From a virus, in IMG/VR virus record IMGVR_UViG_3300035388_000053, positions 1-39,269 of that record: DNA of 39,269 nt; one strand, 5' to 3'. The translations under genes were made by a program, and so were the position numbers. The stretch's first letter is position 1. Each line of letters starts with the position of its first letter. The notes beneath the pieces were generated by a model. That model did not search any database and was not told the origin of the DNA. It worked only from the letters and a program-made list of their open reading frames with translations. This document shows positions 1 to 39,269 of the stretch, one piece after another.

Positions 1-2
1 AA

Positions 3-128
3 TTTAATAAAAGCTCCCTTGAGGTTTTGAGACAACCTCTTGAAGACGGCAGAGTTACAATTTCAAGAGCAAACATGACAGTAGATTATCCTTCAAAGTT
101 CATGCTTGTCTCAAGCATGAACCCTTGA
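3..128 (+). pseudogene. comM: comM/yifB (Mg-chelatase-like AAA+ ATPase), 5' part, truncated by insertion
   Basis: The frame reads [20 protein letters not shown] and continues through [21 protein letters not shown] to a TGA at 126-128. This is the conserved stretch of YifB/ComM proteins just before their CPCG motif. The stop is made by the junction: TG comes from the 4-bp core and the A from the element. ComM is an AAA+ helicase-like factor that promotes branch migration during natural transformation in the species studied. Here the gene is cut inside its ATPase region, so host ComM is probably inactive in the integrated state. The missing continuation is at the right edge of the window. The gene start lies outside the window. 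Confidence 0.93.
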
Positions 129-1779
129 GCGTGCGTGGACAAACAACGTGATTCTCATAACTTAAGTCCACAAACAAATGTACTTTGATGTTATCTTTAT
201 GAATAATGACCTTTTTGACAATACTACGAAGTAGTGTTTTTTTTATGTTCATTGGAAGTTTATTATAAGTCTTAGGATTAAATTGTTTCATTGAGTTCAC
301 GAAAATCTCAGTGTTCAATTTGTAGTTTGTATTATAGTTAATCTCATTGACCACCGAGTTGTATTCAGTTACAACCAGGTTCTTTTCTTTTTCAAGCTCG
401 TCGTATTTTTTCATGATTACAGATTCTGGAAGAATATCTCTGGCCAGAGCAGCTGTAAGGTTGTTAATCTCATTGTCAATTGCATCAAGTCGATTCCTGA
501 GACGTTTCTTTTCTGAAGCAAGATTTTCAATCTGCTCATCTGCTCCGGTGGATCTCTTCAACATGTCATTAAGCTGATCTTCGTTATCAAGGAGATAGCC
601 AAGATATTCAACAACTGCATTTTCAAGCTTATCAGTTCTAATACTTCTATTATCGCATTGTGCTTGCTGTACTTTTTTTATGCAATTGAAATATGAATAA
701 TACCCATCTATTGCTCCATTTCCTCTATTAGTTTTTCTTGAATAGTATACACTCATGCTAGATCCACATTCACCGCATCGTGTAAGTCCTGAAAGGGGAG
801 AGGATTGGCTTTGTCCGGTCCTGGGTGCTACATTAGCATTTTTCTGTATTAACTGCTGAACAGTAGCAAATTCTTTGCCTGGAATTATACCTTTGTGTTC
901 TGCAACCGAAAGGATCCAGTCCTTCATAGGTAGTTGCGTGGATGTTGTTCCGTTTGGTCTTCTTCTATTATAATACATCATTCCATAATTTCCGTCAAAC
1001 ATGCCTTCAGGATTCGAAATTTGGACTTCTGTAGACGTGTTGAAGTAATTGAATGCATAAGTATCACCGACACAGTACAAGGCATTCTTGAGCATCCTTT
1101 GCACCTGATTCGGGTTCCAAGAAGCACCTTTCTTTGTCTTATATCCTAATCTATTGAGTTCTAATGCAGTACCTCGTATAGATCTTAGCTCCATGTACTT
1201 GTTGAAAATAAATTTGACTATAGATGCTTCATTTTCCTCAATAACGAGTCTGGAGGCTTTCTTTATTTTGTTGTTCTCACGAATGGTTTCACTGATAGCC
1301 GTATAACCAAGGGGAACAGGTCCACCGTTCCACTTACCAAGTTTTGCACGGTCTATCATATTGTCCCGAACTCTTTCAACAATAGTTTCTCTCTCCAGCT
1401 GAGCAAAGACACTGGTGATCATCATCATAGCCCTACCCATCGGGGAAGACGTGTCAAAGTTCTCTTTCAAGGAAATGAAATCGACATCTTTTTTATCTAG
1501 ATCATCTATGAGAGTAGAGAAGTCGTTAACCGATCTACTCACTCTATCCAATTTATAGCAGACCAGCGTATGGATCATGCCTTGATCAATGTCATACATA
1601 AGCTTCTTGAAGCTGGGCCTGTCCAGATTCTTTCCAGAAACATCATAGTCCTCATAAATCTGATATGGCCATCCTTTATAATTACATAGATCCTTGCTTC
1701 GCTGGATCTGATTCTCTATTGATTCACCTTTCTCAGTAGCCTTGGACTTTCTTACATATAAAGCTGCAACTTTCTCCAT
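100..1779 (-). CDS. int: Large serine recombinase (integrase), C-terminus altered by integration
   Basis: Site-specific recombinase that should integrate and excise the element at comM; 559 residues from the ATG at 1779, which has GGAGG seven bases upstream (an in-frame start at 1818 lacks one). Resolvase domain about 1-150, with the probable catalytic Ser12 in YVRKS, then [14 protein letters not shown] and YKLDRVSRS. Recombinase domain about 150-300. Zinc ribbon with Cys335, Cys338, Cys366 and Cys375. Coiled coil about 415-475. The last codons run through attL: residues after Lys552 (GSCLRQA and the stop) are read from antisense comM. In the excised circle the frame continues instead into the XRE fragment at 38912-39145, giving 628 residues. 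It starts inside the end of the peptidase gene upstream, so the two are probably cotranscribed from the LexA-box promoter. Confidence 0.96.
124..127. other. attL core (CTTG)
   Basis: Left junction of the element. CTTG is shared with 39143-39146. Joining 1-127 to 39147 onward restores comM without loss or gain of a base, so the crossover lies within these four bases. Short identity and a protein-coding target are typical of large serine recombinases. attL sits inside the recombinase reading frame. Confidence 0.88.
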
Positions 1780-2263
1780 AACAAACCTCCGTGTTTTTTT
1801 CTTTAAAATATCCATCAAACAGCAATGCTGCTGACAGTGTTTTTCTAAAATTTACAAATTCATCTGAAACCCCAAATTCTTCAGACAGCTCATAATCATT
1901 TCGACCATATTTTAGTGCTTCCTCAAATATATGAACAGGCATTAAAAAATAAGCTGCAAATGCATTTGCCTGAGTTTCAGTCTTGATGTTTATTATGTCG
2001 TTTTTAAAAAGATAATTGGAATCGTGAAACATGACATGAGCTGCCTCGTGTGTTAGATCCGACCTATATTCTTTAGTATCTGAATAGTAGGGAAGTGTTA
2101 AAGAGTTGTAAATGGTCAAAGGTTGTTTTAAGTGTTGGCAGAAAAGCAACTTAATACCTTTGTCCGTAAAGATCTGTTCCAATTGGTGAGTCGGAATAGG
2201 GAAGTTGAATATTTGATATTCGGTTAGTAAGTAGATAGATTCTTTAAGCATATTATAATACAT
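1733..2263 (-). CDS. ImmA/IrrE-family metallopeptidase
   Basis: 176 residues with the zinc-protease signature HEAAH in LTHEAAHVMFHD. ImmA-type proteases cleave phage or ICE repressors on DNA damage (ICEBs1 ImmA/ImmR is the model), so a likely substrate is one of the CI-like repressors at 9681-10586. No helix-turn-helix is fused to it. It starts at an ATG behind AAAGGGG and overlaps the recombinase start by 47 bases. That places it first in a peptidase-integrase operon rather than beside the repressor, its usual place. Family call is firm; the substrate is inferred. Confidence 0.87.
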   Translation of the reverse strand: MYYNMLKESIYLLTEYQIFNFPIPTHQLEQIFTDKGIKLLFCQHLKQPLTIYNSLTLPYYSDTKEYRSDLTHEAAHVMFHDSNYLFKNDIINIKTETQANAFAAYFLMPVHIFEEALKYGRNDYELSEEFGVSDEFVNFRKTLSAALLFDGYFKEKNTEVCYGESCSFICKKVQGY

Positions 2264-2328: not shown

Positions 2329-2396
2329 TATAATATATGAAAATATTTTTATTTATGCTAAAATGTATAAAGAAGTTTTTGAAAAGGAGTATTGTT

Positions 2397-4310
2397 ATGT
2401 CCAAAAAAGAAGCTAAGACAGATTTATGGGTTTATAGTTTGCTACAAGAAGCTAATATTGAAGTGGATCCACAAGGAAGTTCTATTAAAGAAATTGACGA
2501 AGCATTAAAAACAGCATCGAAAAGTGGGAAACGAAATGTAGGATATCCAGAATTTGTAGGTGTAGTAAAAGATTTTATTATTGTTATTGAAGATAAAGCG
2601 GATGTTGCAAAGCATATAAAAAAAGAAGATAGTGTGATTAGCACAAAAGTCAAAGATATCAAAAGTTACGCTGTAAATGGAGCTCTATTCTATGGTCAGC
2701 ATTTAGCAAAGAATACATCATATAAAAAAATATTAGCGTTTGGTATTTCAGGAAATGAGAAGAAGCACAAAATTAGTCCTTTATATATTGACGAAACAGA
2801 GTATTACAGAGAGTTACCTGAGGTTGAGTCTTTTATATCTTTTAACGAACAGAATATCGAAGAATATTATGTTCGAGAAATTCTAAATGAATCAACGGAT
2901 GAAGAAAAGGAAACTACTGAAATTCTTAAGGATGCGGCGGAACTTCATGAAGACCTTAGAAATTATGGTAGTTTAAAAGATATTGATAAACCTTTAATTG
3001 TTTCTGGTATTATGCTTGCTTTAAGAGAATCGGAGTTTAAAAACTTTTCCATTGATACCTTAATTGGAGACGAAGAAACTACTGATGGACAAAAGATATA
3101 CAACGCAATTAAAGCTAACTTAAAAAGGGCAAAGGTAAGTCCAGAGGTCAAGAAAGATAAAATACTAAGTCAATTCGCAATTATTAAAGATACGCCATTA
3201 TTGAATGAAATTAATGATACTTTAGGTAAGACACCGCTTAAGCATTATACAGAGTTTTTATATGAAAAGCTTTATAAAAGTATAAGATACGCTCAATCAT
3301 CAGAAGACTACTTAGGTAGATTCTATGGTGAATTTATGTCTTATAGTGGTGGTGATGGTCAAACGTTGGGTATCGTTTTGACTCCAAAACACATTACAGA
3401 ATTATTCTGTGACCTAGTAGATATAAACCCAGATGATGTTGTATTAGACCCATGCTGTGGTACAGCTGGTTTCTTGATTTCAGCAATGCATAACATGTTA
3501 CAACAAGCTACAACAAATACGCAGAGAAAGAATATTAAAAAAGAACAATTGCACGGGTTTGAGTCCCAGCCATACATGTTCACTATTGCTACTACAAATA
3601 TGATTCTAAGAGGTGATGGTAGGAGTAATCTTATTCATGATGATTTTCTTAAGCAAAAACCATTTAAGCTTCAATTAAAAGGTTCTACAGTAGGTATGAT
3701 GAACCCTCCATACTCACAAGGTTCAAAATCAAATCCTCATTTATATGAGTTGTCTTTTTCTGAACACTTATTGGATTCTTTAACAGAGGGTGCTAGATGT
3801 GTTGTTATTATCCCTCAATCATCAATGACAGGAAAAACTAAGGAAGAACAAGGTATTAAGGAAAATATTTTAAAGAGGCATACGCTAGAAGGTGTTATAA
3901 CGCTTAACAAAGATACTTTCTATGGTGTTGGTACAATGCCTTGTATAGCTGTATTTACTGCTGGTGAGAAGCATCCTAAAAATAAGGAGTGTAAATTCAT
4001 TGACTTTAGAGACGATGGTTATAAAGTAAGTGCCCACATTGGTTTGATAGAAACTGAATCGGCTAAAGATAGAAAGCAACACCTATTAGACATTTGGTTT
4101 GATAGAATGGAAACTGAAAGTAAGTTCTGTGTTAAAACAACAATAGAACCAGAAGATGAATGGCTTCATAGCTTCTACTATTTCAACGATGATATTCCAA
4201 CTGATGATGAGTTTGACAAAGTAATAGGTGATTACTTATCATTTGAGTTTTCAATGATAATACAAAACAGAGAATACTTATTTAAACTTTCTGACAAAGA
4301 AGAGAATTAG
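2397..4310 (+). CDS. BcgI-like Type IIB restriction-modification subunit A (nuclease + N6-adenine methylase)
   Basis: 637 residues from the ATG at 2397 (AAAAGGAG upstream), the same size as I recall for BcgI subunit A. An N-terminal PD-(D/E)XK-like nuclease is suggested by GYPEFVGVVKDF followed by IVIEDKAD (Glu65, Lys67). A helical region follows, then a gamma-class N6-adenine methylase: motif I DPCCGTAGFLI (351-361) and motif IV NPPY (436-439). Such enzymes methylate and also cut on both sides of a bipartite site, using one polypeptide for both activities. The specificity gene follows 11 bases downstream, and there is no HsdR-type translocase, which argues against classical Type I. Confidence 0.85.
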   Translation: MSKKEAKTDLWVYSLLQEANIEVDPQGSSIKEIDEALKTASKSGKRNVGYPEFVGVVKDFIIVIEDKADVAKHIKKEDSVISTKVKDIKSYAVNGALFYGQHLAKNTSYKKILAFGISGNEKKHKISPLYIDETEYYRELPEVESFISFNEQNIEEYYVREILNESTDEEKETTEILKDAAELHEDLRNYGSLKDIDKPLIVSGIMLALRESEFKNFSIDTLIGDEETTDGQKIYNAIKANLKRAKVSPEVKKDKILSQFAIIKDTPLLNEINDTLGKTPLKHYTEFLYEKLYKSIRYAQSSEDYLGRFYGEFMSYSGGDGQTLGIVLTPKHITELFCDLVDINPDDVVLDPCCGTAGFLISAMHNMLQQATTNTQRKNIKKEQLHGFESQPYMFTIATTNMILRGDGRSNLIHDDFLKQKPFKLQLKGSTVGMMNPPYSQGSKSNPHLYELSFSEHLLDSLTEGARCVVIIPQSSMTGKTKEEQGIKENILKRHTLEGVITLNKDTFYGVGTMPCIAVFTAGEKHPKNKECKFIDFRDDGYKVSAHIGLIETESAKDRKQHLLDIWFDRMETESKFCVKTTIEPEDEWLHSFYYFNDDIPTDDEFDKVIGDYLSFEFSMIIQNREYLFKLSDKEEN

Positions 4311-4321
4311 GGGGTGTTCAA

Positions 4322-5353
4322 ATGAAACCAAGTGAGAAAGAATGGAAACCCTTTAAAATCAATGAACTATTTGATGTTGATAAAGGTATCTACTTAAATA
4401 AAAAAGACATAATAGAAGGAAATATCCCCTTTATATCAGCTAAAGCTGTTGATAATGGTTTAACAGGATTTATTGGTAATCGAACTCTATTCCCTAAAAA
4501 TTCAGTGACTATTGAAAAAATCAAACTATCAGCATATTATCAGCCATGTGACTTCTACTGTTCTCATGATGTAACAGTTATTCAAAATGAGAACTTGGAC
4601 AAGGAAGTATCGTTATTCATTAGTGCAATGATAAAACGCCAAAGCGTGAAATACTCTTACGGAAGACAAGCACAGATGAACGTTGTTAAAAGGGAGACTG
4701 TTTTATTACCTGTTGATTCAGATGAAAACCCAGATTGGGAGTTCATGAGAAATTATATTGCTGATAAACATCGAGAGAGCGATTCTAAGTACACAACATA
4801 TCTGAAAGATATGGTTAGCAAATTGAAACGCAAAGACATTTCTTCATTAGAAGAAAAGGAATGGAAAGAGTTTACAATTGAAGAACTCTTTGAAATAAAG
4901 TCAGGTGTTCGTTTGACCAAAGAGGATATGGTTGAAGGTGATAGATCATTTATAGGTTCGACTGATTCCAATAATGGTATTACAAATTTTGTTTCTAATG
5001 CTAATAAATCACTTGCTTCAAATGTCTTAGGAGTCAATTATAACGGTAGCGTTTGTGAGGCGTTTTATCATCCATATGAGTGTATATTTTCTGACGATGT
5101 GAAACATTTAGTGCTGAAAAACCATCACGGAAATAAATATATTTACTTGTTTTTCAGTAGCATAATTCGTAAGCAAAAAAACAAATACACGTATGGCTAT
5201 AAATTTAATGGCACCAGAATGAAACGGCAAATTATTATGCTACCTATTGATGAAGCTGGTGAACCGGATTTCGAATATATGGAACAATATATTAAGAATT
5301 TAATGATAAATAAATACAGTAAATATACCAACTATAAATATAAAACGCCATAG
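4322..5353 (+). CDS. BcgI-like specificity subunit B (HsdS-like)
   Basis: 343 residues with two tandem target-recognition repeats. Each begins with a similar motif: EKEWKPFKINELFDVDKGI near residue 5, and EKEWKEFTIEELFEIKSGV near residue 178. Each ends with a YSYGRQ/YTYGYK-type segment. Two half-repeats imply a bipartite DNA target. It probably forms a complex with subunit A, to which it supplies sequence specificity. GGGGG about ten bases upstream of the ATG is the ribosome site. The stop codon lies inside the stem of the following terminator. Confidence 0.85.
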   Translation: MKPSEKEWKPFKINELFDVDKGIYLNKKDIIEGNIPFISAKAVDNGLTGFIGNRTLFPKNSVTIEKIKLSAYYQPCDFYCSHDVTVIQNENLDKEVSLFISAMIKRQSVKYSYGRQAQMNVVKRETVLLPVDSDENPDWEFMRNYIADKHRESDSKYTTYLKDMVSKLKRKDISSLEEKEWKEFTIEELFEIKSGVRLTKEDMVEGDRSFIGSTDSNNGITNFVSNANKSLASNVLGVNYNGSVCEAFYHPYECIFSDDVKHLVLKNHHGNKYIYLFFSSIIRKQKNKYTYGYKFNGTRMKRQIIMLPIDEAGEPDFEYMEQYIKNLMINKYSKYTNYKYKTP

Positions 5354-5913: not shown

Positions 5914-6897
5914 TTATCTATTATTAGAAGATGCTTTTGAGGCCTGTTTATATTCTGAATTAATCTTTTTAGCTAATTGATTTCCATTGTCAACTATAGT
6001 TTGTAGAATTGATTCATAGTTATTTATCATTGAAGTGTTTATAGTCATTTTTACAGCAGTCCCATTTATCAAAGTGGATTTATGTCTTTTATTTTTCTCT
6101 CTTAACAATACAGCATCGTTTCCACTAGCTATTAAAAATGATCCCTTCATTTCACGACACAACTTACTAGCTACATATAATCCAAAACCTGAATTAGCCC
6201 AATAATCATAATCATAAGAATTTAAGTTTCGAACACATGAAACTCCTGGTAAAAGAGCTAATTTAATAGCATCAATGTCATCTTTAATATTTTCTTTATA
6301 TCTATAGTTTTTCTTTAAACTTTGTTGGATTCCAATTCCCTCGTCCAAAATAGCAAACTCAACTAATTTATGATTAGGCCAATGCTGAGCAGCAATCCAA
6401 ACATATTTACTTTCACTATGTTCTTTCACATTTCTAATTATTTCAGTTATTATGAACTTTATTGAATCTTTCATATTTTGATTATCACGACTGAATACAG
6501 AAGCTAATTTTTCAGCATATTTTTCGATAGAATCTTGAATAACTTCATTTTTATTATGTATATCATCAAAACTAATTTTTCTTATAGGTAAATAGTTTTG
6601 ATTACCTTTTGCGAAAATATATCTGTTATCATCAAATCCACAATTATCAAAAAATCCCATGGTTGAAGCATAAGAGTGATTTTCATAGTTAGTACAAGTT
6701 ATGTTTAAATCTTCAAATTTGTTTTTTAGATTTCTAATAGACACAGATGATACTAGCATAGCGAAAGGATCAAAGTTTGTCATTCTAGAAAAATCAAATG
6801 TTATTTTTTTATCTTCTATATTTTCATCAATGGCATTTATTTCATCAATTAATTGAAAAGCACCTATGAAATCTAAATTCGGAACATATATTGTCAA
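5914..6897 (-). CDS. STAS-like domain fused to GHKL (histidine-kinase-type) ATPase
   Basis: 327 residues from a TTG start with GGAG eight bases upstream. The N-terminal part (about 1-105) resembles STAS folds: ITFDFSRMTNFDPFAML, then alternating beta and helix. The second half has the GHKL ATP-binding boxes: N-box EIIRNVKEHS (Glu152, Asn156), G1 DEGIG (185-189), G2 NSGFGLYVAS (236-245). There is no phospho-acceptor histidine domain, so it is not a typical sensor kinase. Comparable STAS-plus-ATPase proteins recur beside defence genes, with unknown roles. It is the third gene of a leftward set with the zinc ribbon and Abi-like genes. A defence or signalling role is inferred. Confidence 0.8.
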   Translation of the reverse strand: MTIYVPNLDFIGAFQLIDEINAIDENIEDKKITFDFSRMTNFDPFAMLVSSVSIRNLKNKFEDLNITCTNYENHSYASTMGFFDNCGFDDNRYIFAKGNQNYLPIRKISFDDIHNKNEVIQDSIEKYAEKLASVFSRDNQNMKDSIKFIITEIIRNVKEHSESKYVWIAAQHWPNHKLVEFAILDEGIGIQQSLKKNYRYKENIKDDIDAIKLALLPGVSCVRNLNSYDYDYWANSGFGLYVASKLCREMKGSFLIASGNDAVLLREKNKRHKSTLINGTAVKMTINTSMINNYESILQTIVDNGNQLAKKINSEYKQASKASSNNR

Positions 6898-19544: not shown

Positions 19545-19888
19545 AATCTGAAGTATTGAATCCTAAGGAAAAATGCTGGGAGAAAGTGTTAAAAACATTC
19601 CCTGATGACGGATATATTTATATACAACCATTGAAACATAAGTACCAGAAAGAGCTTAATTTCAGTGGAATTAAGTGCGTTACCACAGAATCCTATGTGG
19701 TTGAAAAAATGACGAATGACAGTAGCTATGAAAGGTTTGATGTACCAACATGTGGCAATTGCATGATGGGACTATGCAGAGCTGAAGACTCAAAAGAATT
19801 TGATATGGAATATTGTGATAACTGTGAAGCTTCACTACACGATAATATATATTACAGAACCATGTTCAGGAAGAAGGCTGAAGGATGA
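19541..19888 (+). CDS. Cysteine-rich hypothetical protein
   Basis: 115 residues from the ATG at 19541 (AAGGAGG upstream; an earlier in-frame start lacks one). C-terminal CGNC, then CDNC, a zinc ribbon. It overlaps the dam start by four bases. Confidence 0.7.
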   Translation: MKSEVLNPKEKCWEKVLKTFPDDGYIYIQPLKHKYQKELNFSGIKCVTTESYVVEKMTNDSSYERFDVPTCGNCMMGLCRAEDSKEFDMEYCDNCEASLHDNIYYRTMFRKKAEG

Positions 19889-20644
19889 ACAAGACACCAC
19901 TTAATATATTCAGGTATGTTGGTTCGAAATGGAGCTTGTCAAAGGAAATCATAAAGATGTTCCCGGAGCACAAGACCTATCTTGAACCATACTTCGGATC
20001 AGGTGCAGTGTTCTTCACAAAGGGGCCCAGTAATATTGAGGTCTTGAATGATATCAATGGAGATATAGTTAATTTCTTCAAGGTCCTCAGAAATGACGGA
20101 GAGAAGCTGAAAGAGACGTTGAAGCTTGTACCGTTCTCCAGGGATCTATATCTTGAATCTTATGATCTTGACCCGGAGGAAGATATAGACAAGGCGGTCA
20201 ACTTCTTTATTAAGTCATGGATGGGATTCAGTGGTACATATCATCACAAGAGAGGATTCAAGTCCAGCATTAATCCGACTGGTCCTGATAATGCAGGTGT
20301 GTTCAAGAGGGTGGTAGATAACCTGGATATATACATAGACCGGATAAGGGATGCCCACATAGAGAACAAGAATGCAATAGATATAATAGAGGCATACGGG
20401 CAATACGAGGATGTATTGATGTATATAGATCCTCCATACCTGGTAGATACGAGGAAGAACTATTTATACAAGCATGAGGTTGACGACAACCACCATGTGG
20501 AGCTTCTGGAAGCACTAAAGGAATGCAAGGCAAGTGTGTTTCTTTCCGGATATGACAATGACTTGTACAATGACAATCTAAAACATTGGAATAAAAGGAC
20601 ATTGTCGGCTAAGTCGGAGGGATTGCTCCCTCTTTCTCGCCTAA

Positions 20645-20678
20645 GAACTGTACGTGTCACTTTCATGACATACAGCTC
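20645..20678 (-). ncRNA. Group II intron domain V
   Basis: Minus strand GAGCTGTATG...GAAA...CGTACAGTTC: a 34-base hairpin with GAAA tetraloop and the mid-stem bulge, the catalytic heart of group II ribozymes. Confidence 0.88.
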
Positions 20679-20694
20679 AAGCATACTTTTTATC

Positions 20695-22212
20695 CTAATT
20701 ATCTTGGCTCTTTCTTTTAGTATTGTACTTATTTTCACGCTTTTTAAAGTATTCTCCCAAAGTTGCATCATAAGGGCTAGCATTATGTTTTATCATTGTG
20801 TGTCTTTTTATTGGTGTCTGCAACATTCTTTTCAATTGACTATTTTCAATTGGATCTGTAAGCGTCCAGTTGTTTTTACTTTTTCCTGTGAAATCTGGTT
20901 TGTAGTATCTCTTATTTATCCATTTTGCTGATTTCTTAGGATGTAATCGTTCTAAAAACCTTCGATTCACTTTATATATATGAAAATCCACTTTCGAGAA
21001 CGTTTCTTTAGATACCATTGGACGCCAATAGTTTGCTTTGCCAATAATAATTGGATTCAGCATATTAATAACCTTCCCTATGTTATGACCGTTCAGTTCA
21101 TGCACCTTATCAGAAATCTGTCTCATACTCTTTTTAACGGCTTCTTTTGATGGTTTAATTAGTAGCTTTTCGCCTGTGGATGTTTGATATATTCTAACAT
21201 TGAAACTTAGGAAATCGAAGCCTTCCGTAATTTCTACCACTCTTGTTTTACTGGGTTCCAATTCAAGTCCTCTGACTTCTAGATAGGGCTTTAGTTTGTC
21301 ATAAATCGCCTCTGCATCTTCTTTGCTCTTACACATAATTACAAAGTCATCCGCATATCTTGTCATAGCATAGCGAGTTCTATTGTATGTATACTGGTGA
21401 CCATTATTCCTAATGTATTTTTTGTATTTTATGTCCAGGTGTTCCTCCATTCCATGTAATGCAATATTTGCTAATAATGGCGAAATGACTGAGCCCTGTC
21501 CACTGCCTTCTTCCGTTCTTTTAAATACATTATTGTCTACATAACCTGCTTTCAGCCATCTTTCTGTTACCGTTTTTCCTGGAAAATCTTTTATCTGTTC
21601 CATAATATAATCATGTTTTAGATTGTCAAAACAGCCTTTGAAGTCACCCTCAAATATCCATCTTTTCTTTCTTTGTGAGCAGGATTTGAAAATCCTTTCT
21701 ATTGCATCATGACATCCTCTTTTGGGTCTGAATCCATATGAAGTCGGTTCAAACCTTACTTCCCATTGTGGTTCGAGTGCCATTTTTGCAATATTCTGAT
21801 ATATACGGTCCTTTATCGTTGGTATGCTTAACGGTCTGAGTTTTCCATTTTTCTTTTTGATATAGGTTCTATGGGATGGTTTTGGACGGTGAAAGTTTAT
21901 TTGATAGTCTTTCATCTTTCGATATAGTCTAATCCTTTCCCTGTCAGTTAAAACTGTAAATCCGTCGACACCTGCTGTTTTTTTCCCTTTATTGATTTGG
22001 GTAATTCTTTTTATTGATAACAGCAATGCTGACTTGCTGCGCATCAACAATCTTTGAAGTTCTCTTACTTTGCGTTTCATTCCACGACTTTCGGCACGGT
22101 ATATTCGTTGTTGCAGTTTTTCTACATGTCTGTAAACATGAACCCAATTAATTTGTTTCCATGTAAGATTGTTAGGTAATGTGGACTTCATTATTAATGA
22201 AGCATTTCTCAT
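20695..22212 (-). CDS. ltrA: Group II intron reverse transcriptase/maturase without HNH endonuclease domain
   Basis: 505 residues with GGGAGG before the ATG. RVT_N-type N-terminus (about 15-90), reverse transcriptase fingers and palm with YADD (286-289) and GSGQGSVISP, then a maturase X domain (about 350-470). Chloroplast-like relatives usually go on to an HNH domain after ASPYDATLGEY. Here the protein stops about 25 residues later, 16 bases before domain V. So En is absent, and mobility, if any, would use pre-existing DNA ends. All key RT residues are intact. Confidence 0.92.
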   Translation of the reverse strand: MRNASLIMKSTLPNNLTWKQINWVHVYRHVEKLQQRIYRAESRGMKRKVRELQRLLMRSKSALLLSIKRITQINKGKKTAGVDGFTVLTDRERIRLYRKMKDYQINFHRPKPSHRTYIKKKNGKLRPLSIPTIKDRIYQNIAKMALEPQWEVRFEPTSYGFRPKRGCHDAIERIFKSCSQRKKRWIFEGDFKGCFDNLKHDYIMEQIKDFPGKTVTERWLKAGYVDNNVFKRTEEGSGQGSVISPLLANIALHGMEEHLDIKYKKYIRNNGHQYTYNRTRYAMTRYADDFVIMCKSKEDAEAIYDKLKPYLEVRGLELEPSKTRVVEITEGFDFLSFNVRIYQTSTGEKLLIKPSKEAVKKSMRQISDKVHELNGHNIGKVINMLNPIIIGKANYWRPMVSKETFSKVDFHIYKVNRRFLERLHPKKSAKWINKRYYKPDFTGKSKNNWTLTDPIENSQLKRMLQTPIKRHTMIKHNASPYDATLGEYFKKRENKYNTKRKSQDN

Positions 22213-22993
22213 CTGTTACCTCCCTTTGGAAATACTGCTTTCCGCTTTATTCCGTGTTGTACACCAGTTAGAAGTCAGCACCCTTTCAGGTATGTTCTTT
22301 GACATTATCTACCCAGTTATTTCTTATTCCTGTTGGTTTGCACCGTGGTAGCATTAGCTTTTTCTAACGTTCCTTTACCCTCTAAAGAATTGTATCTTCC
22401 TTACGGTTAACCTACCATTCATATGGACTCTATAGGGCTTATCAAGTTTGACTTCTATTAGTTACGAATGGGTTAGGTCTAATCAATACGCCGACAGATG
22501 TATGGGTAGTTGCACATGCACGACGAGAATTGCATTTTCCTATCTGTAATGCAATAGTTAAACATATCCTATCTATTGCTGCCCTTAACGACGCTTAATC
22601 ATAAACCATACCATTCTTTCCATTGCCCTTGACCATCTTGGATACTAGATTATCAATTAGGCTTTTCTTCATGCAACCTACCCCAGAATTACTTCTGACG
22701 CAGTTTCGGATAGGAATATCTTTACTACTAAGACAGCAGAATAACTCTGCACTAATATTATTACAAGAAGAAGCCACTTCTTGTCGCACCAAGTCATATT
22801 GCTCTTCTCATTGTGGAGAGAATTATGACAGGAGAAGGACAGAGGTAATATGGACCAATGTAAAAATTGATGACCAGTTGAGGTTTGGATGAAGGTGAGA
22901 AATCAAAGGGTATTACTTGAATTTCAAAACATGAAAAATTGTTGTTTTATATAGATATGTATTATTGAAAATCATAAAGAACTAGGAGGGAAC

Positions 22994-31869: not shown

Positions 31870-31945
31870 TACAGGTGAGAAACCTGAAATATCAATGTGT
31901 ATAAGGTTATTTGCACTAATATAAAACGATTAGGAGGAATTTAGT

Positions 31946-32332
31946 ATGGCCAGAAAAGCATGGAGAGAATGCAACAAGGTAGGATGTCACGAGCTAACCA
32001 AGGAAAGATTCTGTGAGAAGTGCCAGAAGGAATACGACGAATCAATCAAGGAAAAGAATAAAGAGTATGACAAACAGAGAGGCAGCAGCACTGCACGAGG
32101 ATACAACTATAGATGGCAGAAAGCAAGGAAGGTTTATCTGAAGAATAATCCGTTGTGTGTTGAGTGCCAGGCGAATGGAATAGTCAAAGAGGCAAAGCAT
32201 GTTGACCACAAGATACCACACAAAGGAGATACTAGGTTGTTTTGGGATGTGAGGAACTGGCAGCCCCTGTGTGTAGAGTGTCATAGCAGGAAGACCGCAA
32301 CAGAAGATGGAGGGTTTGGAAACAATGCATAA
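31946..32332 (+). CDS. HNH endonuclease (packaging-associated type)
   Basis: 128 residues with CxxC pairs and the HNH core (LCVECQANG, HVDHKIPHKGD, WQPLCVECHSRKT). In HK97-type cos phages this nuclease lies directly before the terminase genes and takes part in packaging. Here no terminase follows. AGGAGG upstream. It overlaps the next start. Confidence 0.92.
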   Translation: MARKAWRECNKVGCHELTKERFCEKCQKEYDESIKEKNKEYDKQRGSSTARGYNYRWQKARKVYLKNNPLCVECQANGIVKEAKHVDHKIPHKGDTRLFWDVRNWQPLCVECHSRKTATEDGGFGNNA

Positions 32333-33197
32333 ACTTATCTGTAAAGAGTGTGGAAAAGAATTTGACCATGAAAGGAAGACCAGGCAGTATTGTAGTAAGA
32401 CCTGTTCAAATAGAGCGATTGCAAGGAATAGAGAAGAGGATAGAGCGAAGCTCAAGCGATATATATTCTTAAGCTGTGGAGCTGGTGTTCAGAGTACTGC
32501 TATTGCTGTAATGATTGAGCAGGGAAAGATAGAGAAACCAGACGTTGTATTGATGGCTGATTGTGGTTGGGAGAAGCAATCAACCTGGGATTATGTACAT
32601 AGCGTGATCATACCCAGGTTGAACAATGTTGGTGTTGATTTCAAGATTGTAAAGACAACAGACTATTATAGCAATGAACTATTTGATAATAGAGGATATC
32701 TAGTACTACCAGCATTCAGAGTGACTGAAGGTGAGAAGATAAGATTCAAGACCAGGTGTTCCGGGGTTTGGAAGAATAAGACGATAATGAGATGGCTAAG
32801 AGAGCAAGGTGTTAAGAGTTGTGAGTGTTGGCTAGGAATATCTACAGATGAATATAGTAGAACAAAAGAATCAGGGTTGAAGTGGTACCGGCACAGGTAT
32901 CCATTGATAGAGGCTAATATGTCAAGAGCTCATTGTCTTGAGATGATTAGACACTTTGGTTGGCCAGAGCCGAACAGAACGTCTTGCGTCATCTGTCCAA
33001 TGCAGGACAATGGTGCATGGAAGCAGCTTAAGCTTAACTATCCAGATGACTTTGCTAAGGCAGTGAAAGCCGAAGAAAGAATTCGTTCAATAGATCCTGA
33101 TATCTACCTGCATCCTTCAGGTATTCCTTTATCAAAAGTTATATTCAATACCAAGTCACATGATAATGGAAAAAATCCTCGTTGGTGGGAAGAATAG
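32325..33197 (+). CDS. PP-loop (PAPS reductase-like) protein with N-terminal zinc finger
   Basis: 290 residues from the ATG at 32325. N-terminal zinc finger CKECGKEF...CSKTC (about 4-26) is fused to an N-type ATP pyrophosphatase domain with loop LSCGAGVQSTAIAVM, a CSG motif and a late CVICPM. Similar phage proteins are annotated as phosphoadenosine phosphosulfate reductases but more likely act on nucleic acid or nucleotides. The true substrate is unknown. Confidence 0.82.
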   Translation: MHKLICKECGKEFDHERKTRQYCSKTCSNRAIARNREEDRAKLKRYIFLSCGAGVQSTAIAVMIEQGKIEKPDVVLMADCGWEKQSTWDYVHSVIIPRLNNVGVDFKIVKTTDYYSNELFDNRGYLVLPAFRVTEGEKIRFKTRCSGVWKNKTIMRWLREQGVKSCECWLGISTDEYSRTKESGLKWYRHRYPLIEANMSRAHCLEMIRHFGWPEPNRTSCVICPMQDNGAWKQLKLNYPDDFAKAVKAEERIRSIDPDIYLHPSGIPLSKVIFNTKSHDNGKNPRWWEE

Positions 33198-33521
33198 CAA
33201 TGGGGGAGGGGGGTGGAAAATCCTTCATGTCTTTGGTATATAGACCGTTAACCCAAGACACGCACACGCGTTCGCAGGTTTTGAAAAAATTGCAAATTTT
33301 TTAAAAAAAGAAACTTGCAAGATTTTGACTTTTGCTTTTGAAGTTTTGAAAATGCATGAGAGAAAACAAAAACAAGAAAAACGGTGTTTTAATTCGAGGT
33401 TGATTTTTTCGTGGAAGAATATTGTGATGCAGGAGCAGACCTGTAGTGTCTTTTGATATAGATCAAGAAGAAAGAGAAGCAGATACTGGCGGATGATTCG
33501 AAACCTATTGATGTTTCCTAA
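33198..33521. other. Non-coding cos-like stretch and deletion junction
   Basis: After the PP-loop gene comes a G-run (33202-33216, five and six Gs), then a GC-rich patch around ACGCACACGCGTTCGC (33258-33275), then AT-rich sequence. Bacillota cos phages often carry such G-rich DNA between HNH and terminase. No terminase frame is found. Short broken frames at about 33400-33520 end with a TAA in phase with the truncated endolysin. Confidence 0.55.
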
Positions 33522-34133
33522 AAGGGTGAGATAACCCAGCTGGTGGACATTAGGGAAGCTGCTTGGATCAATGGTACCCGAACGGATCCTGAAGAGAAGA
33601 ATTATTATGGGAATTCTTCCTTGAAGCTTGTGAGGGATAGAAGGACCAATGCCAACTATTATTCAATAGGGATAGAGCATGAAGGGTATTATCACAAGGC
33701 TCATGGCAAGCTTACGGATGAGCAGCTTAAGGCTACTATATGGCTACATAATTATATTGTCAAAGAGGTCAAGAGGATAGATGGAACTGACATCATTCTG
33801 GACAGGGAGCATATTGTTGGGCATTACCAGGTGGATCCTTTGCGTAAACCTAATTGTCCGGGTGAGGCTTTCCAGTTTGATGAGATTCTGGAGAAATTGA
33901 AAGGAGCAGTTGCTATGGGAAAAGTATTCAAGGATGTAGAGGATGACAGATGGTCTGCTAAGCACATTGAAGCTGCAGAGGAGCTTGGACTCCTGAAGGG
34001 CATCAAGGAAGACATTGATTTTGACGGTGTCGTTGATTCGGTGTTCAAGCCTACTAACATGTTGACCAGGGAGCAAGGGGCTGTCCTGGTTGTGAGATTG
34101 TATGAAAAAATAACGGGAGAAAAGGTGGTTTAA
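33522..34133 (+). pseudogene. N-terminally truncated endolysin: amidase_2 fragment with SLH domain
   Basis: The frame opens right after a TAA and reads KGEITQLVDIREAAWINGTR, which is the middle of a peptidoglycan-recognition type N-acetylmuramoyl-L-alanine amidase. It continues with IGIEHEG and IVGHYQVDPLRKPNCPG, the conserved GH...P...K..PG part. The first strand and the first zinc-ligand His region are missing. An SLH domain (FKDVEDDRWSAKHIEAAEEL, about the last 70 residues) follows. The only start is a GTG at 33543, without a proper site. Probably inactive. Confidence 0.8.
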
Positions 34134-34493
34134 ATGAGTGATTTTACTTTTGAGGTTTTGAAGATAGTGATAATGTTGGTTGGTGTGGTTTTGACCTACA
34201 AGGTGGTACCGTGGATCCAGGGGAATGTTGATGTGAAGAATCTGGCATTGATGCAGACTTTGATTCAGGCTTTTGTTGCTGCAGCTGAGCAGTTGTTTCC
34301 AAAGGCTGGTTCAGGGGCGATTAAGAAAGCTTATGTTCTTGAGAAATTGAAAGATAAAGGTGTCACTATTACGGATCAGGAGCTTGATGCTTTGATTGAG
34401 GCAGCTGTGTATGAATTGAATAAGGTGAAGAATCTGTTGGTGAAAGATTTGGATTTGCAGCCTGTTGTTGGAGAGGTGGAATTTAGTGAGTAA
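34134..34493 (+). CDS. Phage holin, LLH family
   Basis: 119 residues. One hydrophobic helix (about 8-26), then a helical domain with ALMQTLIQAFVAAAEQLFPK and DKGVTITDQELDALIEAAVY, as in phage_holin_6/LLH proteins. It forms the lysis cassette with the endolysin remnant. Starts two bases after its stop. Confidence 0.9.
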   Translation: MSDFTFEVLKIVIMLVGVVLTYKVVPWIQGNVDVKNLALMQTLIQAFVAAAEQLFPKAGSGAIKKAYVLEKLKDKGVTITDQELDALIEAAVYELNKVKNLLVKDLDLQPVVGEVEFSE

Positions 34494-34761
34494 GTGTAAA
34501 TTGGATAATGGGTATGTCATTTTCCATTGTCCTGGATGTGGCTTTTTTCATGCATGTAACATAGACAAGAACAGGAAGATACCATGTTGGGACTTTAATG
34601 GGGATCCAGAGAAACCAACATTGAAACCCTCTGTACTAGTTACGAGACCAAATACTGACAATAGATGTCATTTGTTTATGACTGATGGGAAGATACAGTA
34701 TTTGAATGATTGTTCGCATGAGTTGAAGAGGCAGACTATAGAGATGGAAGATAGAGAGTAG
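34486..34761 (+). CDS. DUF6527-like protein
   Basis: 91 residues from the GTG at 34486. VIFHCPGCGFFHACNIDKNR, then WDFNGDPEKPTLKPSVLVT and CHLFMTDGKIQYLNDCSHEL match DUF6527 proteins near phage lysis or packaging genes. Zinc-binding is likely; role unknown. Last gene before the late terminator. Confidence 0.8.
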   Translation: MSKCKLDNGYVIFHCPGCGFFHACNIDKNRKIPCWDFNGDPEKPTLKPSVLVTRPNTDNRCHLFMTDGKIQYLNDCSHELKRQTIEMEDRE

Positions 34762-35882: not shown

Positions 35883-36617
35883 ATGATACAATTTACATTG
35901 GAAAATAGAGAAATTCAAATAGAAAACAATAATATTGAAGCAATATGTATTTTTGGTTCTTTGGCTAGAGGGGAAAATGATGAATTAAGTGACATTGATA
36001 TTTTGATTCTAATAGATGGAATTAATGATCAAGATACAATGGACATAAAACTATCATTATCCAATCAAATGGGTATTCCAATTGATTGGTTGTCGGTTTA
36101 TAGAATAACTACTTTTGAACATATGGCTGACAAAGGATCCTATTTTTTGTGGCATTTGAAACTTGAAGGAAAAGTTATCTATTCAAGAACAGATCAATTG
36201 TATAAAATTCTAGATTCTTTAAAAGAATACACAAATATAAAAAATGATTTAGATGAGTATGCTATTATTTGTAAGGATATATTGGACTCTGTAAAGTCTG
36301 GAAATCTGACAATAGATTATGAACTATCTCTTTTGGCATCTTTAGTTAGAAATACGTGTATAGCAATAGCATATATGAGTAAGAAGTACTTATTTGGACG
36401 AATTTCACCTGTTGAATATTGTTTGAAGGAATTAGGACAACCTAATATTTTTGAACTTGATGAATATATGAATTTGTATAATTATAGAATTAAATATATT
36501 AGACCCAATAGTATTAAAAAAGAAAGTAGTGGTGATTTAGAATTAGTTCGATTTTGGATAGAAAAAGTTCAAATTCTCCTAAACTATGCTATAATTAAAT
36601 CGGAAGGACGTGAATAA
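35883..36617 (+). CDS. MNT-type nucleotidyltransferase with HEPN-like C-terminal helices
   Basis: 244 residues. N-terminal minimal nucleotidyltransferase: GSLARGENDELSDIDILILI (Gly25-Ser26, Asp37, Asp39). The C-terminal 130 residues are all-helical (LSLLASLVRNTCIAIAYMSK), like the substrate-binding or HEPN-like part of MntA/KNTase proteins. It could adenylylate or nucleotidylate a partner. Five bases separate it from the channel gene, so the neighbouring products are obvious candidate partners. Confidence 0.82.
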   Translation: MIQFTLENREIQIENNNIEAICIFGSLARGENDELSDIDILILIDGINDQDTMDIKLSLSNQMGIPIDWLSVYRITTFEHMADKGSYFLWHLKLEGKVIYSRTDQLYKILDSLKEYTNIKNDLDEYAIICKDILDSVKSGNLTIDYELSLLASLVRNTCIAIAYMSKKYLFGRISPVEYCLKELGQPNIFELDEYMNLYNYRIKYIRPNSIKKESSGDLELVRFWIEKVQILLNYAIIKSEGRE

Positions 36618-36618
36618 T

Positions 36619-36903
36619 ATGTTAAATAAATTTAATCTTAAGGTGGCTTTAGAAATTGAAAAATTGCTTGAATTGAGTAAAGCTAGCCCTTATGTTTTTA
36701 GAACAAGATTGGAGCGAGTGCTTTATAAGATAAATCATAATTCTGCTTACTCCCAAGATTCCGATGTTGTAAGTAAGTGTAACTCAATCGGGATAAAATT
36801 AAAATGTTTGTCCGATCAGAGTAATCAAACACCTGATGGGACTTTGAATAGTTTTTTATTTTTGGAAAAAGACCTTGTAGAACTATTGTCAGTAATTCAA
36901 TAA
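36619..36903 (+). CDS. Small helical protein, third gene of the channel-MNT operon
   Basis: 94 residues from the ATG at 36619, behind GGAAGGA, one base after the MNT stop. All-helical, no membrane segment, no HEPN motif. Possible regulator of the operon. No family recognised. Confidence 0.72.
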   Translation: MLNKFNLKVALEIEKLLELSKASPYVFRTRLERVLYKINHNSAYSQDSDVVSKCNSIGIKLKCLSDQSNQTPDGTLNSFLFLEKDLVELLSVIQ

Positions 36904-36950
36904 ATCAACTATTCTGTAATAAGTAGAGAAGTTTTTCTAAATTAGCATTA

Positions 36951-36979
36951 AGATCGGTAGTTTTCCGGTCTTTTTTATT
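36951..36979 (+). terminator. Terminator after the channel-MNT operon
   Basis: AGATCGG-TAGTTTT-CCGGTCT (one T-G pair) followed by TTTTTATTT. Confidence 0.8.
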
Positions 36980-37006
36980 TGCAATAACCCAAAATGAGAG
37001 TATAAT
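36979..37006 (+). promoter_or_regulatory. Promoter of the 37045 gene
   Basis: TTGCAA (36979-36984), 16-base spacer, TATAAT (37001-37006), immediately after the terminator, 38 bases before the gene. It marks the gene as an independent unit. Confidence 0.68.
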
Positions 37007-37044
37007 GAAATGGAGTTAATTAAATCTTGGGAGGGTAAGAGGGT

Positions 37045-37530
37045 ATGACTATAAAGAATCAACTGGATATGTATATGGGATTGAGATCTAGGATTAATCA
37101 TTGTATTGATAACTATGAGGATTACATTGAAAAATTGAAGGAAATTGCTTTATTGACTAATGAAGAAGAAAATATCACAATTATTAATGATAAATTGAAG
37201 TTATTCAATGAAGTGTATAGAAAAGTAGAATCGAATAAACTTGCAATCAAGGAACATTATAAATACAATATTATATGGAAGCATGAACGTATTCCATATA
37301 ATACTCTTGAAAACAGCTTAGCGAGTTTAAAGACTTATACAACAACGGAAATAAGTGGGGAAGGATTTCTTAGGTCAATTGCTCATGTTTTAAAAGTAGA
37401 GTATAGTAAAGATAATATTAAAATTATATTAGACGCAATAGAAAAAGAAAAATTAGTAGCAGATGGGTTAAGGGAATATTCAAATTCACTTGATGAATTT
37501 ATTATAGATTATGAAAATGATAATTTATAA
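37045..37530 (+). CDS. Orphan helical cargo protein
   Basis: 161 residues, with GGGAGG and its own promoter and terminator. Entirely helical, likely coiled coil (IEKLKEIALLTNEEENITII). No recognised domain. Its autonomous unit among defence-type cargo makes it a candidate single-gene defence or regulatory factor. Confidence 0.72.
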   Translation: MTIKNQLDMYMGLRSRINHCIDNYEDYIEKLKEIALLTNEEENITIINDKLKLFNEVYRKVESNKLAIKEHYKYNIIWKHERIPYNTLENSLASLKTYTTTEISGEGFLRSIAHVLKVEYSKDNIKIILDAIEKEKLVADGLREYSNSLDEFIIDYENDNL

Positions 37531-37548
37531 AAGTTAGTATTACAAAAA

Positions 37549-37573
37549 AGAACAGGGGATAACTCCTGGTTCT
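37549..37573 (+). terminator. Weak terminator hairpin
   Basis: AGAACAGG and CCTGGTTCT arms with a bulge, shortly after the 37045 gene. It has only a short T-run. Confidence 0.5.
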
Positions 37574-37627
37574 ATTGTTAGCCATTTAACCATTATTTAA
37601 CCACTGGGTTTTCTATAGTCGATTTTC

Positions 37628-37691
37628 AGGAATTTGCCGTTTCTTCTGTGAGTATTGAAAAATAGAAGAAATGGAAAAACGACAAATTCCT
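37628..37691. repeat. Long inverted repeat
   Basis: AGGAATTTGCCGTTT (37628-37642) and AAACGACAAATTCCT (37677-37691) pair at 14 of 15 positions. Inner arms CTTCT/AGAAG extend the stem and outer AGTCGA (37617-37622)/TCGACT (37705-37710) flank it. It dominates the 259-base gap 37531-37789, which has no gene. Confidence 0.7.
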
Positions 37692-37789
37692 AAAGTATGC
37701 ATATTCGACTCCCACCGTCGAACCAACGAATAAACTTGTTAGTAGTATCTTAAGTAATTATTGTTCATTCAATAATGATTGGAGATTAT

Positions 37790-38746
37790 ATGGAAAATTT
37801 CAAAAACGATAATGAAATAATACAATATTTTGAGGATAAGATAACTGGATTTAAAGAGTTTGAGAAGCACCTTCTTTATAGAGAAGAACAGATTTTAGCA
37901 GATAAAAACATTTTTAGAATTAGAAATTCTAATGAATGGATATTTAGAATAAATAATATAATTATTCAATTAAAATATTCACTGAAAAATAGTATGAAAT
38001 TTGCTAAATTAGTATGTAATCCTATCGAGGAGAGTAAAGAGAAGCAAATGTATTCTTATTATTTGGAAGATTCGGTATATAGAACAATATTGTTATGGGA
38101 TATTTACAAACAGCTTGTTAATGAATTCTATTCCCTTGGTTTTAATAGACATGCACAGTATTCGATATTCAAAATGCTTAAAAGAATAAAATCAAAGAAA
38201 AGGTGGGATAAAGAAAGGTATTGTTCACTTGAAAAATATTTGAATTCAAAAAAACATAAAAATGTAAGGCAGTATCTTAGAAATAAGTATACTCATAGTG
38301 TTGATCCTACATCAATGATTGTATTCCATGATGAGAATGAAAATGGTATAATAACTCCTGATATCGATAATATAATTCCAAAACACCCATATGAGAATAT
38401 TATTGATGTTATAGACGATTTATCTATATTAATAGATAGAATAGAATACATAAATGAAGAAATCAAAGGTGAATTAATAAATAAATTAATGTTGGTAAGG
38501 GCAACCGCAGTCTTACCATGTGGGATAAATGAGACGTTACCGTTATCTAATATGGGTGAATTATTTGAATTATATAATGATATTGGTGTTTATGCAAAAT
38601 ATAGAAATTGCATTGGATGTAATAATGTAAGAATTTATGAAGGGGAAAATACATGCAAACCGATTAGAATTGATTATAATCGAATTCATGAAGAAGATGA
38701 AATTAAAACGCTTGAATGTACTAGTAGAGTTGAAGAAGAAAATTAA
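37790..38746 (+). CDS. HEPN-domain protein (Cthe_2314-like)
   Basis: 318 residues from the ATG at 37790, with TGGAG seven bases upstream; an earlier in-frame ATG at 37775 lacks a site. The RX4-6H nuclease-type motif is RNKYTH (Arg164-His169) in a helical domain. HEPN domains of this kind are RNases in toxin and defence systems. A Cys pair (NCIGCNN) near the end may bind metal. It has no obvious antitoxin neighbour. Nuclease activity is inferred. Confidence 0.72.
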   Translation: MENFKNDNEIIQYFEDKITGFKEFEKHLLYREEQILADKNIFRIRNSNEWIFRINNIIIQLKYSLKNSMKFAKLVCNPIEESKEKQMYSYYLEDSVYRTILLWDIYKQLVNEFYSLGFNRHAQYSIFKMLKRIKSKKRWDKERYCSLEKYLNSKKHKNVRQYLRNKYTHSVDPTSMIVFHDENENGIITPDIDNIIPKHPYENIIDVIDDLSILIDRIEYINEEIKGELINKLMLVRATAVLPCGINETLPLSNMGELFELYNDIGVYAKYRNCIGCNNVRIYEGENTCKPIRIDYNRIHEEDEIKTLECTSRVEEEN

Positions 38747-38911: not shown

Positions 38912-39145
38912 CTATATTGAACTCATAAATTTAGCAATTTTTGGAGATCCTTTTGTTCTACCATGTTCAATATTGTATATAGTTTCTTTATGTACGCCAA
39001 TTTTATCAGCAAGCTGCCTCTGAGTGATATCATTCAAGAGGCGGTATTTTTTTACTCTTTCTGCAAGTGTAGTTTCTGGAAGGTTAGAATAATCTGGGGC
39101 GGTATAAGGGATTGTGAAAATCACGTTGTTTGCTTCTGCATGCTT
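38912..39145 (-). pseudogene. Detached XRE helix-turn-helix C-terminus of the recombinase
   Basis: 77 codons from the core lysine to the stop, no start codon with a ribosome site. NLPETTLAERVKKYRLLNDI followed by TQRQLADKIGVHKETIYNIE is a clear XRE-type helix-turn-helix. The core codon CTT (Lys on the minus strand) at 39143-39145 is in the same phase as the CTT at 124-126 in the recombinase. In the excised circle this fragment is therefore residues 552-628 of the recombinase. In the integrated state a long frame runs in from antisense comM but is probably not translated. Confidence 0.88.
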
Positions 39146-39146
39146 G
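39143..39146. other. attR core (CTTG)
   Basis: Right junction of the element; identical to attL at 124-127. Element DNA ends here and comM resumes. Element length from core to core is about 39,019 bases. Confidence 0.88.
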
Positions 39147-39269
39147 TCCCTGTGGTTATTATGGTGATCCAAAGCATGAATGCAAGTGTTCAACATCTCA
39201 AATAGAGAGATATTTAAGTAAAATATCAGGACCTCTATTAGACAGGATAGATATTCAGATAGAGGCAAC
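39145..39269 (+). pseudogene. comM: comM/yifB, 3' part (partial at window edge)
   Basis: Frame [20 protein letters not shown], then [20 protein letters not shown], is the conserved continuation of ComM/YifB after SSMNP. It follows the left fragment in phase when the element is removed. Without a start it is not expressed as ComM here. Confidence 0.93.

Follow-up and report, generated by a model that had tools for sequence, protein, structure and literature searches.

A probable deletion-type cryptic prophage in comM, with remnants of lysis genes where the packaging and structural module is missing

Did the element described here lose its packaging and structural genes, or did it never have them? 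The window, by which we mean the whole stretch of viral DNA analysed (39,269 nucleotides), carries an HNH endonuclease gene and then a gene for a PP-loop protein, and 0.35 kb further on, as the first-pass annotation had observed, an amidase gene that lacks its beginning. That annotation left two explanations standing: a single large deletion, or an architecture like that of a phage satellite. We favour a third, with a probability of about 0.9: the window is a defective prophage in comM, with both of its ends present, that lost its particle genes by deletion, in an event separate from the truncation of the amidase. Deletion-type cryptic prophages of this sort are a well-known kind. The features on which the argument turns are collected in Table 1.

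Table 1. Features of the window, numbered from its first base
Feature	Position	Strand	Basis or remark
Whole record	1-39,269		39,269 bases; IMG/VR virus record, IMGVR_UViG_3300035388_000053
Host comM, 5' part, ending in attL core CTTG (124-127)	1-127	+	Open reading after joining
Serine integrase; last codons are comM sequence	100-1818	-	Resolvase, Recombinase and Zn-ribbon domains; phrog_95, E 1e-120
HNH endonuclease	31946-32332	+	PF01844, phrog_144; 95% DNA identity to G001
PAPS-reductase-like PP-loop protein	32307-33197	+	phrog_424, E 5e-28; 98% aa identity to L002
Last G001-homologous DNA before the large-deletion junction, intergenic	33198-33328	+	blastn; base-level alignment ends ...CTTGCAAGATTTTGA
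55 bp containing the large-deletion junction	33329-33383	+	Neither flank of any relative aligns credibly
C-terminal remnant of Phage_holin_4_1-type holin, three in-frame stops (pseudogene)	33384-33494	+	Holin profile; tblastn
Second deletion junction (small), joining the holin end to about residue 56-60 of the endolysin	33495-33509	+	Holin match stops at 33494; endolysin profile starts at 33510, position about 64
Truncated amidase endolysin with C-terminal SLH-like piece	33510-34133	+	Profile match, 245 bits; PF01510, 67-131/131; alignment with relatives
Second holin (Holin_LLH), intact	34134-34493	+	PF09682, E 2.8e-13
DUF6527 protein	34465-34761	+	PF20137, E 6.7e-17
XRE helix-turn-helix domain	38912-39142	-	HTH_3; fused ORF across attP; aligned with L017 and Harrison integrases
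attR core CTTG (39143-39146) and rest of comM	39143-39269	+	Open reading after joining

The window is a whole integrated prophage, intact at both ends. One half of comM makes up roughly the first 125 bases and the other roughly the last 125; when these flanks are joined at their common CTTG, they give an open comM stretch of 82 aa (FNKSS...DIQIEA) with no stop. The distance from att to att is about 39.0 kb. Since both comM halves are present and joinable, the missing genes are absent from the element itself, rather than lost at the end of a contig. As in cryptic prophages generally, the att sites lie in a host gene and are accompanied by a phage integrase, here of the serine type.

Profile scans of about 60 ORFs (Pfam-type domains and PHROGs) identified the integrase, repressors, a DnaD-like loader, SSB, dUTPase, an ArpU-like regulator, and the HNH, PAPS-reductase-like, amidase and holin proteins. 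Among the same ORFs, PHROGs found no member of the terminase, portal, capsid or tail families, and the structural proteins of the relative described below had no tblastn match in the window; the earlier statement that 39 kb hold no such gene is thus borne out. A line reading 'terminase small subunit' in the PHROGs scan is a weak secondary match of the HNH protein only.

What ought to follow the PP-loop gene can be read from a single relative, L002/G001 (IMG/VR 3300035388_000034), which is 94.9% identical in DNA over positions 31943-33328 of the window (blastn). This was the only close PP-loop relative found: none turned up when species genomes were scanned for the PP-loop protein, and blastn found no match among named phages. 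In G001 the terminase small subunit lies within 240 bp after the PP-loop gene, and is followed by the terminase large subunit, portal, protease, major capsid and head-tail genes, then by the tape measure and tail genes. From the start of the terminase small subunit to the holin is about 19.2 kb. The gene order that the first-pass annotation took as normal, HNH and then terminase to tail, is thus seen in G001, with the PP-loop gene between. Identity ends at 33328, about 105 bp 5' of the G001 terminase start and, because G001 carries the full module right after the same HNH and PP-loop pair, we conclude that about 19 kb are missing here. The two elements are alike in this pair, 95% identical in DNA, and in their related regulators and replication genes; they differ in that G001 has the full structural module and another lysis cassette. 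As the exact parent is absent from the collections searched, the break on the left could instead mark a mosaic boundary slightly outside the true end of the deletion.

On the right, the stretch that precedes the amidase is not simply spacer. In the amidase frame, 33384-33494 reads VF*FEVDFFVEEYCDAGADL*CLLI*IKKKEKQILAD, and a profile built from the upstream holins of 20 related loci (duplicates removed) matches it at 18.7 bits (i-Evalue 1.4e-5, positions 132-168 of 187). As a control, the window was shuffled 20 times (first-order), and the highest score was 6.7 bits. The same remnant is the best match in the window for two holins by tblastn. This holin C-terminus places the end of the large deletion inside the holin gene, within 33329-33383, an interval for which nothing credible aligned on either the tail/holin side or the terminase side. 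The repeats that had been suggested as a check at the junction amount to short matches of 9-14 bases (e.g. GTTTTGAAAA at 33278 and 33343), a weak test without the parent sequence; both copies are still present, and so a repeat-mediated join is not supported.

Beyond the holin remnant lies a second lesion. Of the 131 positions in the Amidase_2 profile, the amidase covers only 67-131, whereas the match of its full-length relatives begins at position 4 or 5. A TAA occurs at its edge (33519-33521), and the longest ORF runs from a GTG at 33543 to 34133 (196 aa). No close relative of the endolysin turned up when viral and genome collections were scanned for it. More distant ones, L013 and L009 (250 and 248 aa; 63% and 55% identical), lie between a Holin_4_1-type holin and a Holin_LLH, an order that recurs in further related loci. 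The window has the same three genes in the same order; the L013 and L009 cassettes differ in that all their genes are intact. The first conserved His (SHIT, NHIT or NHIS) is present in all six full-length relatives and missing from the window endolysin, which retains the GHYQ...C part. We take the zinc ligands of Amidase_2 (T7-lysozyme type) to be His, His and Cys, the first conserved His being one of them; the window protein is thus without its full set, the first His belonging to the lost part. As the holin remains sit between the large-deletion junction and the endolysin, the truncation is a separate event, a small deletion at 33495-33509 of about 0.2 kb by comparison with L013.

The first-pass annotation had placed the scar in the endolysin and, in one of its two readings, attributed everything to one deletion, running from 5' of the terminase straight into that gene. 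The endolysin has indeed lost its N-terminus, and the gene order of the 95%-identical relative upholds a large deletion for the packaging and structural module. The 111 bp in between carry the C-terminal end of the holin whose gene stands ahead of the endolysin gene in relatives, and therefore one clean join cannot account for the sequence. There are two junctions, the first of them in the upstream holin gene, and we consider a single deletion distinctly unlikely.

Still less probable is that the element is a phage satellite, which never needed structural genes because a helper phage packages it. An integrase, att sites, regulators and replication genes without structural genes are what such an element would show. 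Phage satellites (PICI-like) are small, about 10-18 kb, and the roughly 39.0 kb between these att sites are far above that size. PHROGs profiles found no terminase small subunit and none of the known hijacking, helper-redirecting or capsid-morphogenesis genes, a search that novel types could escape. The near relative G001 has the full module, and the join carries a decayed holin and a beheaded endolysin. A satellite ought to show up repeatedly with this join and to retain packaging functions, and neither was the case in these searches. Nor is the architecture one that independent members share: an exact search for the short-amidase junction found no match among viral contigs, and no relative with that junction, nor any other record with this endolysin, turned up in the viral, phage and species-representative genome collections. 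Related elements with the same junction and a short endolysin, which the first-pass annotation held would make this the normal form, were thus not found in the collections searched, and its satellite-like alternative is not supported, the lysis genes at the join being pseudogenes.

Equally little credence goes to the view that the deleted element is still mobile, able to excise and be carried by a helper phage as a large 'stripped' element becoming a satellite, a reading prompted by the retention of att sites, integrase, regulators and replication genes. An assembly artefact, in which metagenomic contigs of two phages were joined over a gap, is just as improbable: the IMG/VR record is metagenomic and known from assembly alone, and its left side matches one phage and its right side others, but the comM halves fit together, and the stops in the holin remnant and the second small lesion point to age and are not what joining two intact genomes by mistake would produce.

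We therefore return to a prophage decayed by deletion. A decayed lysis gene at the join argues that the module was lost, rather than absent from the outset, and the particle genes lost or broken here (the holin and endolysin among them) are present in relatives, G001 having the module. The ancestor would have been a temperate phage, siphovirus-like and about 58 kb long, in which the integrase was followed by regulators, replication, HNH, PP-loop, terminase to tail, holin, amidase endolysin and second holin. One deletion, of roughly 19 kb, would have begun just 5' of the terminase small subunit and ended inside the first holin gene. Another, of about 0.2 kb, would have taken the holin end and the first 55-60 endolysin codons, including the start and the first zinc-binding His; later point mutations would have introduced stop codons into the holin remnant and at the edge of the endolysin. 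The sequence comparisons themselves show that the module is missing, where the left break lies relative to G001, that a holin remnant survives and that the endolysin is truncated; the order of events and the exact deletion size we infer. The 196-codon amidase remnant is still open, which counts against decay. With no structural genes and with lesions in lysis, the prophage should not form particles, nor lyse its host via this amidase.

The genes that remain open are the integrase, regulatory and replication genes and the cargo (a BcgI-like restriction-modification pair, a nucleotidyltransferase and a HEPN protein), and the element may persist as a carrier of genes useful to the host. The pair, at 2337-5353 (+), comprises a Type IIG restriction-methyltransferase (657 aa) and a specificity subunit (343 aa), and is retained defence cargo. 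At 35883-38746 (+), between the lysis genes and attR, a Polbeta nucleotidyltransferase and a Cthe_2314-like HEPN protein are possibly defence or toxin-antitoxin cargo. A HATPase_c protein at 5914-6897 (-), in phrog_3364 of unknown function, is possibly a regulator. Within 19885-22900, a group II intron in the opposite orientation (RT 20695-22212, domain V 20604-20680) truncates a D12-class adenine methyltransferase gene close to its end; past the intron, no remainder of this gene was recognised.

The integrase has a peculiarity of its own, in that attP sits within its reading frame (100-1818 and 38912-39142, both on the minus strand). In the excised circle the ORF reads across attP without a stop into an XRE HTH (39142-38912), to give 628 aa. 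The same C-terminal HTH is part of one ORF in the serine integrases of L017 and Paenibacillus phage Harrison (695 aa). As the frame runs through attP into the HTH, integration would cut this C-terminal domain off the integrase. The nearest published parallel that we found is the repressor of mycobacteriophage BPs, which is cut by attP (PMC4557955). In the literature searched we found no report of a serine integrase that loses an HTH by integration, although one may exist. Such an integrase could be a direction switch; it merits separate study, and is perhaps more interesting than the decay of the prophage itself.

Prophage decay through deletion of late genes is common, and a single case matters little; what this one offers is a clear instance of two deletion steps that can be separated, thanks to a relative and the remnant of a gene. 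According to a survey of incomplete prophages, the genes lost preferentially are those for packaging, structure and lysis, and integrases are kept (PMC7744054). The present element resembles these prophages in having lost terminase, portal, capsid and lysis genes and retained its integrase and host-useful genes; it differs in that tail genes are enriched in the incomplete prophages surveyed, whereas here none of the structural block is left, not even the tail genes. In the degraded prophages of Streptococcus pyogenes emm4, deletions truncate the genes at their ends (PMC8115907). These share with our prophage large internal deletions that truncate junction genes, and the keeping of cargo, but there it is mainly regulation, replication and integrase that were lost, whereas our prophage keeps those and has lost its structural module.
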